A stretch of 10,163 nt of DNA from Candidatus Poribacteria bacterium. Lineage in GTDB: Bacteria; Poribacteria; DTPJ01; WJIO01. Below are positions 2,988-8,703 of this stretch, in pieces (the stretch's first letter is position 1; each line of letters starts with the position of its first letter). The notes under the pieces were generated by a model, which was not told where the DNA came from, made no database searches, and saw only the letters and a list, made by a program, of their open reading frames with translations. Where the stretch lies: the NCBI GenBank assembly GCA_014730235.1, contig WJIO01000218.1:1-10163 (forward strand), given 5' to 3'. A program made the position numbers and the translations under genes.

Positions 2988-3506
2988 ATGCCAGTATATG
3001 ATATTAAGGACGAAATTAACAAATTAGACCCAAATAAAATACAGATATATAAAGACGAAATGAACCGTCTTATGTTGAAAATGGAGGGAGAGGAAGAAGA
3101 TCAGGAAATTGCAGCTTCTATGGATTTTCCTCTAAGTAATCCTGAACGCTTTATATCAATCCTAACCTTAAAAGACGGTAAAAAGGATAAGGAAATAGGG
3201 GTAATAGACAACATAAGAAAACTCGATTCAAAATCCAGAAAGATTTTGAAAGAAGAATTAAAATGGACTTACTACATGCCCAGAATTACAAAAATAAACT
3301 ATCTCAAAGAAGATCACGGCATAATGCAGTTTGATGTTGAAACAGATAAAGGTCACAGGGAATTTGAAACAAGATACAAAGAGGACATAAGAAGGCTATC
3401 CGGCACTCGGGTAATTATAAGAGATGCTGACGGTAACAGGTACGAAATAAAGGACTATACAAAACTTGATCCCCGAAGCATAAGCCTGATCGATAACGAA
3501 ATATAA
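2988..3506 (+). CDS. DUF1854 family protein, partner of the ABC exporter
   Basis: The protein has 172 residues. It starts at ATG 2988, with GAGGG 7 nt before it. It matches my memory of the DUF1854 family: a middle block around MDFPLSNPERFISI (45-58), then EIGVIDNIRKLD (69-80), EELKWTYYMPRI (89-100), ETDKGHREF (118-126) and the C-terminal hallmark DADGNRYEI (146-154) followed by LDPRS. There is no signal peptide and no membrane helix, so it should be a soluble cytoplasmic protein. The acidic, lysine-rich first 45 residues look poorly conserved. It follows the ABC exporter gene after a 67-bp gap holding a large hairpin, and in the family this pairing is common. The biochemical role is unknown; an accessory to the exporter is inferred from the gene pairing. 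Confidence 0.75.
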   Translation: MPVYDIKDEINKLDPNKIQIYKDEMNRLMLKMEGEEEDQEIAASMDFPLSNPERFISILTLKDGKKDKEIGVIDNIRKLDSKSRKILKEELKWTYYMPRITKINYLKEDHGIMQFDVETDKGHREFETRYKEDIRRLSGTRVIIRDADGNRYEIKDYTKLDPRSISLIDNEI

Positions 3507-3520
3507 AAATCGGGTTAAGA

Positions 3521-4603
3521 TCAATAAGGATAATAACTAACAGCAGTATCGAACATGGACACAATGTTCTCAGGCGGCGTTCCGGCCTGGATAGCATGAG
3601 ATGGGCCTAGTATATACCCGCCGTCTTTACCCAGAGTCTTTATAAGCATTTTCACCTCCCGTTTTACATCATCCGGACTGCCAAAGGGCAAAGTTGTCTG
3701 GACACTTACTCCCCCTTGAAAGCACAAAGATTCACCATATCGGGTTTTTAGTTCCAATGGATCCATGCCATCTGCGCTGAACTGAAGTGCCTGTAAAACA
3801 TCTATACCCATATCTATAAGACCCGGCACAGCCTCCATTACCGATCCGTCGCTGTGATATATAACCTTTGCGCCAAATTCATGTATTACTTTGTTAAGCC
3901 TTTCGTGATGAGGCTTGATAAATTCCTCCCACATTTCCAGAGGTATCAGAAGCCCACGCTGATCTCCAATATCATCGGCAGTAAAGGCCAGGTCTATTTT
4001 CCCCTTTGCGGCTGAAAGCATTCTCCTGAAATATTCAACATAAAAATCCGCTACCCTTCGCATAATCTCATGAACCAGATCAGGATTCAGCAGAAAATCC
4101 ATAAGCATCTGCTCAAATCCCCGCATATACCAGGAAGTCTCCAGTATATTGCCATTGGCTATCATAATGCAGAATTTCCGCTGGGATTGAATATCAGCAA
4201 TGCGCTGAGGTATTACGGAATAATCAAACCATTCAGGCCTGGGCCATGTATGTTTATCCAGTCCATCCAGATCTTTGATATCCTTAAGTGGATAGTAGTA
4301 TATCTCACTGTAGCTGGCAGGGCCATAGCTTATGGGCTTGCGATCCACACCCCAGATGTCCTTGCCGCTTTCCAGCGATGGCCCGATATAATCAGGGCCA
4401 ACAGACTTTATATCCAGTATTGGTGACAGATAATCATTGACGGTTATACACCTTTCCCGCCTGAGATATTCCCCCAGGGTCTTCATAGCCGGAGGATTGA
4501 TCCCTGAGCAGACCATAGCTATGGGTATTCTGTCAGTTTCTTTGTGTTCTAAAGCCAGCTTAACTCGTTCGCGACTTGATAATGTTTCTTTTAGTTTCGG
4601 CAT
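3521..4603 (-). CDS. UroD-superfamily protein (methyltransferase-like), H-x-D type
   Basis: The chosen start is ATG 4603, giving 360 residues. GAGGG lies 7 nt before it, inside the last codons of the beta-helix gene. An upstream in-frame ATG at 4636 would add 11 residues and overlap that gene by 29 bp. The N-terminus SSRERVKLALEHKETDRIPI (9-28) is typical of the MtaA/CmuA-like branch of the uroporphyrinogen decarboxylase superfamily. The HemE signature with RQAGRY is absent, so it is not a heme-pathway enzyme. Key sites are TADDIGDQ (208-215), YHSDGSV (249-255), FQGGVSVQ (295-302) and GPSHAIQAGTPPENI (333-347). Where MtaA/MtbA enzymes bind zinc with His-x-Cys and a distal Cys, this protein has H250, D252 and, by eye alignment, H336. 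It is probably cytoplasmic. The substrate is unknown. It is a paralog of the protein encoded at 6466-7431. Confidence 0.85.
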   Translation of the reverse strand: MPKLKETLSSRERVKLALEHKETDRIPIAMVCSGINPPAMKTLGEYLRRERCITVNDYLSPILDIKSVGPDYIGPSLESGKDIWGVDRKPISYGPASYSEIYYYPLKDIKDLDGLDKHTWPRPEWFDYSVIPQRIADIQSQRKFCIMIANGNILETSWYMRGFEQMLMDFLLNPDLVHEIMRRVADFYVEYFRRMLSAAKGKIDLAFTADDIGDQRGLLIPLEMWEEFIKPHHERLNKVIHEFGAKVIYHSDGSVMEAVPGLIDMGIDVLQALQFSADGMDPLELKTRYGESLCFQGGVSVQTTLPFGSPDDVKREVKMLIKTLGKDGGYILGPSHAIQAGTPPENIVSMFDTAVSYYPY

Positions 4604-4607
4604 AATA

Positions 4608-6461
4608 TTACCCTCGGGGGCCGGCGTTGCTGACATCCAGAGGATTTATACCCAGCTTTTTAACAGGTGAATCAGGGTCAAATAAAATTTTTCCGTCCTT
4701 ATATTCTACCAGCATGGGATCAGAAACCACATTCTTTTTGGCAAAATTAATGGATGATTCACCGGCATCAGAGTAATTATTCATACGCTTCCCCACTATC
4801 TTACCTTTTCCGCTGAATATTACGTTATTTTTCAGTTTAGAAATGCCGTCAATGTTTGTAAAGGTTATGCTTCCGGTAGCGTAGATGACGTTTTTCTCAA
4901 CGGTATACTCAGAAGATTTGGGGAATGTGAGGACAGCATCACCATCATAAACGAAGACATTATTGCGGATGGTGTTATCTACAGCCATGTGATTATGTGA
5001 AGGTCTGGCCACATTTACTGACACGTTGTTTTCCACGACACAGCCGGTGCTGCGTTCATCCAGGTAATAAGCAGAGGCCCCATAACCCCCTGTGTCCTCA
5101 ATATCATAGATGAAGTTCTGGCTTAACCTGAGGTTATCTCCAGCGAAGCAGTATATCCCCGCACCATCATGAAGCATCTGCATTGCCCGGTATATGCGGT
5201 TATAGGAAATATCATGACCAGGGCCGCCACAGGTGATGGCCGAATAGGGTGTATCATGGATCTCGTTGTGATTATATATTCCATCAGTACCGCCACCTAC
5301 CAGACCTATAGCGCTTGGATAAAGCAATCCCACATGATGAATACGGTTATCGGTAACATGACATCCAGCCGCCCTGATCCCGCAGGCTCCGACGTGGTGA
5401 ATGTGACATCCCTGAATGTGAATTTTGCTGTTGTTGACTTTAATACCCTGTCCTGCGGCGTTAGACACTTGAATGGACTGAAGAAAACAGTCCATGCTAT
5501 TGGTTATATTGACAGCACCGTCAAACCTTCCTGCACCAAAGCCACCGGCTATCAATGGAGTTGTGGTAACTTCAAAAGACAACCCGTAAATAGCAATGTC
5601 CTTTAAAGGATTTTCTTTTTCTCCCTGTACAATAATTATAGATTCCATCACCGGTGCAATGGCCCTTGCCTCTTTCATGTCCTCACCAGGCAGAGGCCAG
5701 TATACTAGCTTTCCTTCTGCCCGATCCAGATACCACTGCCCCGGCTGGGTCATTCCCTGACGAAGGTTCCAAACAACGTATTTCTTCACATCGAAGGCCC
5801 CGGCCGGATGTCCGGTGGGTGTAGCAAATGTCATAATGTTATTCTCAAAATCAACTTCCTTTACCCCTACCGTAGACTCGTCCCACATATGATAAACGGT
5901 TACTTCAGCATTTTCAGGAACAAACCATTCTCCCATGTCTTTAGGGTGGAATTTCATGGTTGTCAGTTCTTCATCAGTAGGTTTACGCTTCCAGCCACCT
6001 CCGGTGGTGGACATCCATGGAACATCAAACACGCTCAGATGCTTAAATGTTCCCTCCTCCGGCAGTCGGGAACGAGGGCAAAAGCGACCATTTACCACCA
6101 ACGCCCGAAAATCCCAATCACCTTCCTTAACACCGGGAAGCTCAACAGAATAGAATTTATCTCCGTCCTTTTCCCAGCCTGAAATTTCCCTGCCGCCGTA
6201 GAACACAGGTTCAGCGTCAGAATCAGCTTCAATAACCAATCCATTGTCCCGATTATCCAACATCACTGGTTTATCCAGGAAATACTCACCGTCTTTAACA
6301 ACTATTCTTCTGGGGCTGGATACACCTATCTTCCGGGCTTCATTTACGGCTGTCTGAAGATCGTTGCCATCAGGTGAAACATAAAAAATCGCATCCTGGC
6401 TTGCAACGAATGACAGACAGGCTACCGTTAAAGATGCAAACACACTGTAAGTCAAAAACAT
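4608..6461 (-). CDS. Exported right-handed parallel beta-helix protein (GH141-like)
   Basis: The protein has 617 residues. ATG 6461 has GAGG 7 nt before it, inside the end of the preceding UroD-like gene. The first 21 residues are a hydrophobic export signal without the usual positive charges, with likely cleavage near FVAS-Q. FYVSPDGND (26-34) opens the mature domain. The segment around PVFYGGREISGW (85-96) and RALVVNGRFCPRSRLP (119-134) is typical of large beta-helix carbohydrate-active proteins such as GH141. Residues about 285-560 show the repeated N/H/G-rich coils (for example GCHIHHVGACGI and ENNVSVNV), and HDGAGIY (431-437) is family-typical. The C-terminus SDPMLVEY...DPDSPVKKLG is the usual end motif. 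It is probably a periplasmic or secreted glycan-active enzyme. Linkage and substrate cannot be read from the sequence, and GH141 membership is from memory. It sits between two UroD-like genes with 4-bp gaps on both sides. Confidence 0.85.
   Translation of the reverse strand: MFLTYSVFASLTVACLSFVASQDAIFYVSPDGNDLQTAVNEARKIGVSSPRRIVVKDGEYFLDKPVMLDNRDNGLVIEADSDAEPVFYGGREISGWEKDGDKFYSVELPGVKEGDWDFRALVVNGRFCPRSRLPEEGTFKHLSVFDVPWMSTTGGGWKRKPTDEELTTMKFHPKDMGEWFVPENAEVTVYHMWDESTVGVKEVDFENNIMTFATPTGHPAGAFDVKKYVVWNLRQGMTQPGQWYLDRAEGKLVYWPLPGEDMKEARAIAPVMESIIIVQGEKENPLKDIAIYGLSFEVTTTPLIAGGFGAGRFDGAVNITNSMDCFLQSIQVSNAAGQGIKVNNSKIHIQGCHIHHVGACGIRAAGCHVTDNRIHHVGLLYPSAIGLVGGGTDGIYNHNEIHDTPYSAITCGGPGHDISYNRIYRAMQMLHDGAGIYCFAGDNLRLSQNFIYDIEDTGGYGASAYYLDERSTGCVVENNVSVNVARPSHNHMAVDNTIRNNVFVYDGDAVLTFPKSSEYTVEKNVIYATGSITFTNIDGISKLKNNVIFSGKGKIVGKRMNNYSDAGESSINFAKKNVVSDPMLVEYKDGKILFDPDSPVKKLGINPLDVSNAGPRG
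4611..4615 (-). promoter_or_regulatory. Ribosome binding site that sets the UroD-like start at 4603
   Basis: On the minus strand GAGGG ends 7 nt before the ATG at 4603 and lies in the final codons of the beta-helix gene, whose TAA occupies 4610-4608. This favours 4603 over the ATG at 4636 and implies translational coupling between the two genes. Confidence 0.7.
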
Positions 6462-6465
6462 TTAT

Positions 6466-7431
6466 TTACCTCATTTCTCTACCAACTTCATACATGGCTA
6501 GTATATTTTCTAAGGGAATATCAGGCAAAAACTCCTGGCTGGGGCCAAATATGTATCCTCCACTCTCGCCGAAAATCTCTATCAACCGACGGGCTTCAGC
6601 CTTAACTTCTTCTACTGTCCCAAAGGGAAGTATATGCTGAGTGTCCAGACCGCCGTGAAATGTTATGTATTCGCCAAAATTGGACTTTAAATATTCAGGT
6701 TCCATGTCAGCGGCTCTTACCTGTATGGGATCAAGAGCATCCATACCCATCTCTATAAGCCTGGGAATCAGCTTGCTTACGCTTCCGCAGGAATGGAGCA
6801 TTACCTTTAAACCGAAATCTTTGGCTAAATCAAACAGCCTTGACACCTGGGGGGCGTAAAACTCATCCCAGCTTTCATGGCTCATTATCAGGTTGCGCTG
6901 AGTTCCGTAATCATCTCCCATGAAGAAAATATCCATCTTTCCGTTGGCAGCCTCAAAGGTTCTCACGCTTTGATCATAAAATAGGTCGGTTATGCGTTCC
7001 AGAAACAATTTGACAAATTCCGGCTCTTCATGGGTTTTTATCATCAGGGTTTCCATGCCGATCAAAGCAGAAGCAGTGCAGAATATTGGACTCCAGGCCC
7101 CGCCCATGACGGCGTAATAGCTGTATTTATCGCACAATGCCTCAATGTTCGAATAATCAAACATATCCGGATCAGGAATTTCGCATTTTTCTAGTTCTTC
7201 CACAGTCTTCACTGTTCTCAAACCTGCCCAGAGATCAGGTTCTCCCATATATGGAGCCCGTACTACGCGTATATCAACACCAAGGTATTCTAATAATTTG
7301 TCATAACTACTCAGATCTAAACGAGATTGCAAGGCATCGTTGACTTCCTTCCAGGCCCAATAGTCCATGGGAACTCGGTCAGTCTCTTCATGCTCCATTG
7401 CCATTAATACACGTTCTTTTGAGGATAACAT
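6466..7431 (-). CDS. UroD-superfamily protein (methyltransferase-like), H-x-C type
   Basis: The protein has 321 residues, and ATG 7431 has GGAG about 7 nt before it. The N-terminus SSKERVLMAMEHEETDRVPM (3-22) is typical of the UroD superfamily branch that includes cobalamin methyltransferases such as MtaA and CmuA; HemE motifs are absent. Key sites are GDDYGTQ (172-178), MLHSCGSV (211-218) with H213 and C215 in the zinc-ligand motif, FHGGLDTQ (258-265) and GPSQEFLPDIPLENI (296-310). By eye alignment, the distal Cys ligand of MtaA/MtbA enzymes is replaced by Q299. It appears to lack some 30 residues, between MGEP (62-65) and DLWAGL (66-71), that its paralog at 3521-4603 has before the PDPDMFDYS block. 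It is probably cytoplasmic, acting in a methyl-transfer or decarboxylase-like reaction of unknown substrate. The gene follows the dehydratase gene after an 18-bp gap. Confidence 0.85.
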   Translation of the reverse strand: MLSSKERVLMAMEHEETDRVPMDYWAWKEVNDALQSRLDLSSYDKLLEYLGVDIRVVRAPYMGEPDLWAGLRTVKTVEELEKCEIPDPDMFDYSNIEALCDKYSYYAVMGGAWSPIFCTASALIGMETLMIKTHEEPEFVKLFLERITDLFYDQSVRTFEAANGKMDIFFMGDDYGTQRNLIMSHESWDEFYAPQVSRLFDLAKDFGLKVMLHSCGSVSKLIPRLIEMGMDALDPIQVRAADMEPEYLKSNFGEYITFHGGLDTQHILPFGTVEEVKAEARRLIEIFGESGGYIFGPSQEFLPDIPLENILAMYEVGREMR

Positions 7432-7449
7432 TTAATTCTCCGTTTTAAT

Positions 7450-8610
7450 TTATATTTTTACCACCAATTCTTCCTTAACCTCAAACCCAAATCCCGGAGC
7501 ATCGCTAGGTGAAATGTATCCATTCTCAGGCACAGGAACACCCGGTATTGTTCTGATTTCCTCCAGCGGAACCCCAGGAGGCGTGGCCACAAAATATTCG
7601 ATCCAGGGAACGTTAGGTGTAGCACAGCTAAAGTGCTGACCATAGGCCTGATTTGCACCACCGTGCAGCATAACCGGCAGACCCGCAGCTTCGGCTAGAT
7701 GGGCGATTTTTACACATTCGCTCAGTCCTCCCACCCAGTTTATATCCGGTTGCAGGATGTCCAGGCATTTTCTTTCGATATACTGCTTGAAGGGCCAACG
7801 GGTGTAATTGTGTTCGCCAGTTGCCAGGGCCAGCCAGTTTACAGCATTTTTGACAGTCATCCAGCCGTCAATGTCTTCCGGTATCAGACATTCCTCCATC
7901 CATTTAAGCTTGTAAGGTTTAAGTCGCTGGGCCAGCCTTATTGTATATTCCACGTCAAAGGCCATGTAGCAGTCCAGCATAATTTCCACATTATCACCCA
8001 CAATTTCCCTGGCCTTGGCCACAAACTTCTCATTTTCGTCCAAACCCCGTAGACCGTCGGCAGGACCATAAGGACAGGCCAGCTTGACAGCTTTAAAGCC
8101 CAGTTCCACGTACCAGTCCACATCGTTACCCGTGGCATAAGCGAATATCTTGTTCTTTGACGGACCTCCCAATAACTCGTATACCGGTCTACCTTCTATA
8201 TTTCCGGCCAGATCCCACAGAGCCAGGTCAATGCCGCTCATAGCCAGGCATGATAATCCCAGCGTACCGTAGGGTTTTGACATGCGGAACATCATGTCCC
8301 ATATCTTTTCCCTTGCGAAGCAGTTTTCACCTTCCAGCATAGGCGCGAAATGGCCCTCAATTATGGCTTTTACAGGAGCACCTGCTGAGGTTGTGCCTAA
8401 CCCCCACGTTCCATCCTCAGCCGTTACCTTTACCCACATGCCGCCCCACTTCGGCATCCATAAGGAGCGATGTCTTTTATATTTTGGATATTTTGACATA
8501 GGATTGGCCACTTCCGCATCAACAGCCCAGGCATCCCTTCGCTTCTGAGATTTTGGGAGATCAGAAGGTGGAAGGTTTAACTGGACACATTCGATCTTTT
8601 TTATATTCAT
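7450..8610 (-). CDS. Enolase-superfamily sugar-acid dehydratase, L-rhamnonate dehydratase-like
   Basis: The protein has 386 residues, close to E. coli RhmD (about 400). ATG 8610 is preceded by GGGAG 7 nt away. It has the mandelate racemase/muconate lactonizing layout: N-terminal capping domain to about residue 130, then the barrel. RhmD-like signatures are ANPMSKY (35-41), MLDCYM (211-216), KWMEEC (236-241), TGEH (264-267), QPDINWVGGL (287-296) and MLHGGAN (314-320). Expected magnesium ligands D213, E239 and E266 and the catalytic dyad H316-D289 are all present, so it should be active. RhmD-type enzymes dehydrate L-rhamnonate to 2-keto-3-deoxy-L-rhamnonate in the cytoplasm. Related sugar acids such as L-lyxonate, L-mannonate or fuconate-type acids are possible alternatives. 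It is the first gene of the apparent carbohydrate module, 93 bp after the methyltransferase gene. No aldolase, dehydrogenase or sugar transporter is in the window. Confidence 0.88.
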   Translation of the reverse strand: MNIKKIECVQLNLPPSDLPKSQKRRDAWAVDAEVANPMSKYPKYKRHRSLWMPKWGGMWVKVTAEDGTWGLGTTSAGAPVKAIIEGHFAPMLEGENCFAREKIWDMMFRMSKPYGTLGLSCLAMSGIDLALWDLAGNIEGRPVYELLGGPSKNKIFAYATGNDVDWYVELGFKAVKLACPYGPADGLRGLDENEKFVAKAREIVGDNVEIMLDCYMAFDVEYTIRLAQRLKPYKLKWMEECLIPEDIDGWMTVKNAVNWLALATGEHNYTRWPFKQYIERKCLDILQPDINWVGGLSECVKIAHLAEAAGLPVMLHGGANQAYGQHFSCATPNVPWIEYFVATPPGVPLEEIRTIPGVPVPENGYISPSDAPGFGFEVKEELVVKI

Positions 8611-8703
8611 TTTTTATCTCCCTTGAGAAGAAATAGGATTGGTTCTCCGGGTTTATTGTGATAATAATTTGAAAATCCTCTCAGCCTGTTATCTTTACCG
8701 CAC
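8611..8703 (-). other. 93-bp gap between methyltransferase and dehydratase genes
   Basis: This is the largest gap in the minus-strand gene train and the likeliest place for a new transcript start for the carbohydrate module. I see no convincing -35/-10 pair and no strong terminator, only weak pairings such as AGGATT with AATCCT. The Shine-Dalgarno site of the dehydratase lies at its downstream end. Confidence 0.4.

Follow-up and report, generated by a model that had tools for sequence, protein, structure and literature searches.

A Candidatus Poribacteria operon of two URO-D superfamily proteins, a beta-helix protein and an RhmD-like dehydratase, with a possible corrinoid-linked role in glycan use

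What do two proteins of the URO-D superfamily do in an operon with a sugar-acid dehydratase and a probably exported beta-helix protein? The question is raised by four genes of a Candidatus Poribacteria bacterium (GCA_014730235.1, contig WJIO01000218.1). The window, by which we mean the whole stretch of 10,163 bp that was analysed, is a complete contig (C146; G, C and L numbers are our handles for genomes, contigs and loci) of a 5.53 Mb metagenome-assembled genome (MAG) in 451 contigs, and the contig ends bound the view. A first-pass annotation had read the four genes as a module in which the beta-helix protein releases O-methylated sugars, the URO-D pair demethylates them and the dehydratase acts on the resulting sugar acid; this complete chain is possible. 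The explanation that we favour is that the URO-D proteins, here called UroA and UroB, would be corrinoid-linked methyltransferases in glycan use with a partner encoded in trans, and that the operon would be a lineage-specific one for the use of that glycan. We put it forward tentatively, as an explanation that falls somewhat short of probable. All features below are on the minus strand unless stated otherwise.

UroA (6466..7431, 321 aa) and UroB (3521..4603, 360 aa, with an alternative ATG at 4636) were assigned to the superfamily by profile, the two proteins scoring 93.1 and 87.8 bits with URO-D (PF01208) and passing the cut-off of 23.9. The first-pass annotation had placed them on the cobalamin-methyltransferase side of the superfamily, and the NCBIfam scores agree: 71.4 and 75.0 bits with PRK06252 (methylcobalamin:coenzyme M (CoM) methyltransferase), whereas the hemE equivalog gave 26.2 bits for UroB against a cut-off of 302.95 and did not list UroA, so that HemE membership failed. 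The methylcobamide:CoM methyltransferases MtaA and MtbA are thus the best NCBIfam family of both proteins, and MtaA is the sole sequence match of UroA in the PDB. However, the PRK06252 scores lie far under the cut-off of 244, and those with mtaA_cmuA (55.1 and 69.8 bits) do not reach 235.4. In the alignment, His213 (6793..6795) and Cys215 (6787..6789) of UroA coincide with the zinc-ligand His and Cys of the MtaA motif LHICG, but the third ligand position, Cys in MtaA and His in the family, is Gln299 (6535..6537). UroB has His250 (3854..3856), Asp252 (3848..3850) and His336 (3596..3598) at the three positions. The MtaA-type zinc set His-x-Cys...Cys is therefore absent from both. The His-Asp-His set of UroB recurs in L081_1, which this genome encodes directly 3' of a corrinoid-protein gene, and in UroDs within the corrinoid clusters of other genomes. 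The AlphaFold2 models of UroA and UroB are confident TIM barrels (mean predicted local distance difference test, pLDDT, 94.6 and 93.1) with MtaA and UroD as best PDB matches. Fold comparison was rejected as a way to tell UroD from MtaA: the Z-scores are almost tied (26-27), and because MtaA and true UroDs match the models about equally, the fold alone does not decide.

The link to sugars comes from the relatives of UroA, which was grouped with two paralogs of its own genome and with Bacteroidota and Planctomycetota proteins. Support for this clade is moderate (FastTree 0.98 for 7 leaves; ultrafast bootstrap 82-90, with 82 for 11 leaves). The first-pass annotation had looked to homologs beside corrinoid proteins and sugar genes, and one clade member lies in such an operon, that of the cultured isolate Puteibacter caeruleilacunae (G062:C184, L267:17280 to L268:13351; also L019). 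It encodes a UroA-like protein, a corrinoid protein, an MtaA-like UroD with a thioredoxin domain, CobW and a Met_synt_B12 activation domain, followed by a sulfatase, a creatininase, a UroD, a GDSL/SASA esterase, a neuraminate-lyase-like protein and an epimerase-symporter fusion. Echinoderm sialic acids are O-8 methylated or sulphated, and O-acetylated (PMC6994554), and we infer that this enzyme set fits those decorations. The Puteibacter operon possibly serves the catabolism of O-methyl sialic acid. In G253, a UroA-like protein and a UroD are encoded with BNR and neuraminidase-like proteins, sulfatases, an epimerase-symporter fusion and genes matching the sizes of the Puteibacter esterase and lyase-like genes. 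Another clade member (L024) is found with SusCD and three BNR proteins, and the paralogs of UroA are found with an FGGY kinase (C30) and a sulfatase (C213). A second UroD is in the same run for 6 of 11 clade members, that of L282 scoring weakly. No common theme emerged among the neighbours of the nearest UroA relatives, which include a type II secretion system, a nucleoside triphosphate (NTP) transferase, an adenosine monophosphate (AMP) ligase, a protein kinase and a GH36-like protein. Perhaps the UroA/UroB branch as a whole is a corrinoid-dependent O-demethylase family for methylated sugars that occurs widely, in Planctomycetota, Poribacteria, Bacteroidota and others, with a Puteibacter system for 8-O-methyl sialic acid as one case, but this wider proposal we regard as doubtful.

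The gene between those of UroA and UroB (4608..6461) is predicted from profiles and from its N-terminus to encode a right-handed beta-helix protein of 617 aa, probably exported and distantly GH141-like. Its N-terminus is hydrophobic and has no Lys or Arg, which fits a signal peptide, yet an atypical one. The protein scores 38.5 bits with Beta_helix and 24.9 with GH141_M (Pfam), under the cut-off of 27, and its earlier reading as a GH141 enzyme was therefore not upheld. The nearest solved relatives are the parallel beta-helix protein 9rx2 and the GH141 enzyme BT_1002 (5mqp). The insertion domain and beta-helix of BT_1002 align with the window protein and a conserved Asp falls in the same region, although the C-terminal half aligns weakly. 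Asp432 (5166..5168), invariant in 13 of 13 homologs, is a candidate catalytic residue, and Asp468-Glu469 (5055..5060) is kept in 10 of the 13. The two closest homologs (42-43% identity) are from an Omnitrophota MAG and a Fimbriimonas MAG. In the Omnitrophota MAG the homolog (42%) is followed by a UroD gene with an overlap of 16 bp. The encoded UroD shares about 32-33% identity with UroA and UroB and 45.5% with a further UroD from the window's genome. The pairing of beta-helix protein and UroD therefore recurs in another phylum, with a different UroD.

A corrinoid protein and its activator were also looked for in the rest of the genome, as the first-pass annotation had proposed, and both were found. 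Three methyltransferase-type corrinoid proteins have the cap and B12-binding architecture or come near it: the gene in C202 is directly 5' of a UroD, that in C110 is about 5.5 kb from a UroD, and that in C346 precedes a homocysteine S-methyltransferase. The genome also encodes B12-domain proteins of different types. The single corrinoid activator (AcsV/RamA-like; L088:9859-13863, G000:C296) is flanked, all on one strand, by a ROK kinase gene and a Gfo/Idh/MocA gene. A corrinoid partner is thus available in trans. The presence of both components is a weak test, since 57 of the 58 phylum members, those with few UroDs included, carry the activator family PF14574, and for the same reason the activator was rejected as a marker of UroD expansion. 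In other genomes, full clusters (L250, L252, L261, L262) combine a corrinoid protein, an activator, two to four UroDs and a homocysteine methyltransferase, with DUF1638 in L252.

Glycans of algae, plants and animals are commonly capped by O-methylation. Under the favoured explanation, the beta-helix protein would probably act outside the cytoplasm on a polysaccharide, and UroB, possibly also UroA, would take the methyl group from an O-methylated sugar. The methyl group would be handed to the Co(I) form of a corrinoid protein whose gene lies in another part of the genome; this protein would be kept reduced by the RamA/AcsV-type activator. Judging from its family, the dehydratase would dehydrate a sugar acid of the L-rhamnonate/L-lyxonate type.

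The dehydratase (7450..8610, 386 aa) was identified by profiles and motif alignment as an RhmD-like acid-sugar dehydratase of the enolase superfamily (MR_MLE), and this assignment, also made in the first-pass annotation, is borne out by 177.5 bits with MR_MLE_C (Pfam) and by the motifs. It resembles L-rhamnonate dehydratase RhmD over its full length, and the metal-ligand and acid/base motifs MLDC, EEC, GEH, QPD, LHG and IEY align with RhmD structures. However, this best NCBIfam match reaches 308.1 bits and misses the equivalog cut-off of 393. The His of the capping-domain motif of E. coli DDH, which we take to be a substrate contact, is replaced by Glu at the aligned position. Orthologs with 57-81% identity are present in five related genomes (G001, G070, G057, G040, G003): 81% in the same-order genome, 70% in the Poribacteria-named G070 (locus L076) and 57-67% in genomes of the same phylum. 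A paralog in G070 (45% identity) adjoins a gene for a DHDPS-family aldolase. Since relatives retain the enzyme where no UroD adjoins it, its action need not follow demethylation. To judge from these relationships, it is a lineage-wide general sugar-acid enzyme and not a dedicated member of this gene set.

The order of the genes, dehydratase, UroA, beta-helix protein, UroB, and the gaps of 18, 4 and 4 bp between them were confirmed, as were the four open reading frames (ORFs) and their coordinates. Inspection of the sequence found Shine-Dalgarno-like sites upstream of the dehydratase (AAGGGAG, 8618..8624), before UroA (CGGAG, 7438..7442), before the beta-helix gene (TGAGG, 6469..6473) and before UroB (GAGGG, 4611..4615). 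The last two are buried inside the preceding gene, as had been claimed for all three junctions; the site of UroA, with its GGAG, is in the 18-bp gap. This spacing supports the predicted co-transcription of the four genes. It is nevertheless unremarkable, because close packing is frequent in this genome: in loci fetched from it, the distance lies between -60 and 30 bp for 48% of 601 same-strand neighbour pairs. Searches of 24 genomes, with the dehydratase and the beta-helix protein as queries, returned no second copy of the four-gene set, so the earlier expectation of co-conservation failed. Within the sequences searched, no relative of UroA or UroB exceeds about 42% identity. A conserved four-gene module was rejected, given the dehydratase orthologs without such neighbours, and the four genes are an ordinary tight operon.

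Several observations weigh against the favoured explanation. UroA lacks the lid hairpin, 25 family positions that would follow its residues 65 and 69, and has Gln299 in place of the third metal ligand. No cognate corrinoid protein is encoded in the operon; the ORF list and a profile search of the whole contig confirmed its earlier reported absence from the window, within the limits set by the contig ends. In the set of loci compared, a corrinoid protein lies beside a relative in Puteibacter only, no member of the UroA and UroB superclade falls within the four corrinoid clusters of other genomes in the tree, and two members of the UroA clade (L280, L281) have no sugar context. The window's genome encodes 76 URO-D proteins against the three corrinoid proteins. 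Finally, no UroD or beta-helix gene lies beside the dehydratase orthologs in the five genomes, and sugar-family genes are not significantly enriched within 3 kb of the 76 UroDs (Gfo/Idh, 11 of 109 with 8.4 expected; MR_MLE, 2 of 13 with 1.0 expected). Of the earlier suggestion that sugar genes accompany UroDs and their homologs, what stands is the activator's run and the UroA clade relative.

These points bear first on the explanation that survives best among the alternatives, a shared transcript without a shared pathway. Here, a stand-alone dehydratase would have been captured beside a unit of UroDs and beta-helix protein, and the UroDs would act on another small methylated compound, such as a thiol, an amine or a phenol ether. 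The unrelated contexts of the dehydratase orthologs, the lack of sugar-gene enrichment and the frequency of tight gaps all favour it. However, members of the UroA clade lie beside sugar kinase, sulfatase, SusCD and sialic-acid genes, and the adjacency of beta-helix protein and UroD is seen again in another phylum. We consider this alternative somewhat unlikely.

The state of UroA raises another alternative. Because of the 25 positions missing around residues 65-69, UroA may be altered in function or be a partner of UroB. Dimers are common among enzymes with the UroD fold. UroA might then be a degenerate, non-catalytic subunit or modulator, and UroB alone would transfer the methyl group, as the missing positions and Gln299 in place of the family His would allow. 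Nevertheless, UroA is modelled with a high-confidence fold, its D174/H213/C215 core is intact, and the ligand sets of the paralogs vary widely. It is moreover only 34% identical to UroB and not its sister in trees, and a recent tandem duplication was rejected. A degenerate UroA is therefore unlikely in our judgement. It is likewise improbable that the expanded UroDs of this lineage are corrinoid-independent TIM-barrel enzymes with another reaction on sugars or sugar acids: the ratio of 76 to three, the low-similarity sugar epimerases also returned by Foldseek and the variable ligand sets among 80 UroD ORFs (fetched loci of the window's genome) speak for it, but genomes both related and unrelated have clusters of UroD, corrinoid and activator genes, and one UroD of this genome is directly 3' of a corrinoid gene.

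Other features of the genome and window were recorded. UroD-UroD pairs number 5 in the genome against 3.1 expected, which is not significant. A clear hemE was not seen, the best URO-D score in this genome being 210 bits versus best scores of 299-454 in several others. The genome gave 109 Gfo/Idh/MocA hits. Membrane proteins with DUF6785/DUF6784, possible transporters, have 9 copies in its fetched loci, 7 of them within four genes of a UroD (examples are L113:6095-8029, L127 and L208:10315-12234), and a gene for such a protein adjoins the dehydratase ortholog in G040. A plasmid collection gave distant matches only, among them CmuA/CmuC and a UroD surrounded by sugar genes on a Chloroflexota plasmid; on the latter (L299, CP069395.1), the distant UroA/UroB relative lies among ROK, Gfo/Idh, sugar isomerase, deoC and sugar ATP-binding cassette (ABC) transporter genes. 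On the plus strand of the window, 623-2920 and 2988-3506 encode an ABC transporter/DUF1854 pair whose matches to NCBIfam 'cyanophycin metabolism-associated' models stay under the cut-offs, and no CphA was found in the window.

Literature searches on UroD in Poribacteria, on corrinoids with sialic acid and on corrinoid sugar demethylation gave nothing on point. If the favoured explanation is true, the large uncharacterised UroD expansion of this genome would gain a role, and methylated glycans would have a path into one-carbon metabolism where oxygen is absent. Through the Puteibacter cluster, the idea can be tested in a cultured isolate. The closest known systems are MtvB, OdmB, VdmB, MtoB and CdmB (PMC13222342). 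These members of the UroD superfamily are corrinoid O-demethylases or dehalogenases; their substrates are phenyl methyl ethers or haloalkanes, and a corrinoid gene is usually nearby. They share the UroD fold, the transfer of methyl to a corrinoid protein and a zinc site that is variable or absent in the group, whereas the window operon has adjoining sugar genes and no corrinoid gene. Type 1 mlp gene clusters (Kountz and Balskus, PMC10418091) likewise have several UroD-type proteins per cluster and no tetrahydrofolate (H4folate) methyltransferase. However, they hold Mlp2, Mlp3, a corrinoid protein and Ram together, and the window, having neither corrinoid protein nor activator, does not belong among them. 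The same task, removal of a sugar O-methyl group, is carried out in porphyran degraders by a cytochrome P450, which demethylates 6-O-methyl-D-galactose in an oxygen-dependent reaction that releases formaldehyde (PMC10033563); among described microbial routes to such removal, this is the one that the literature search brought up. The system proposed here would need no oxygen and, if real, would be an oxygen-independent counterpart of the P450 sugar demethylases.
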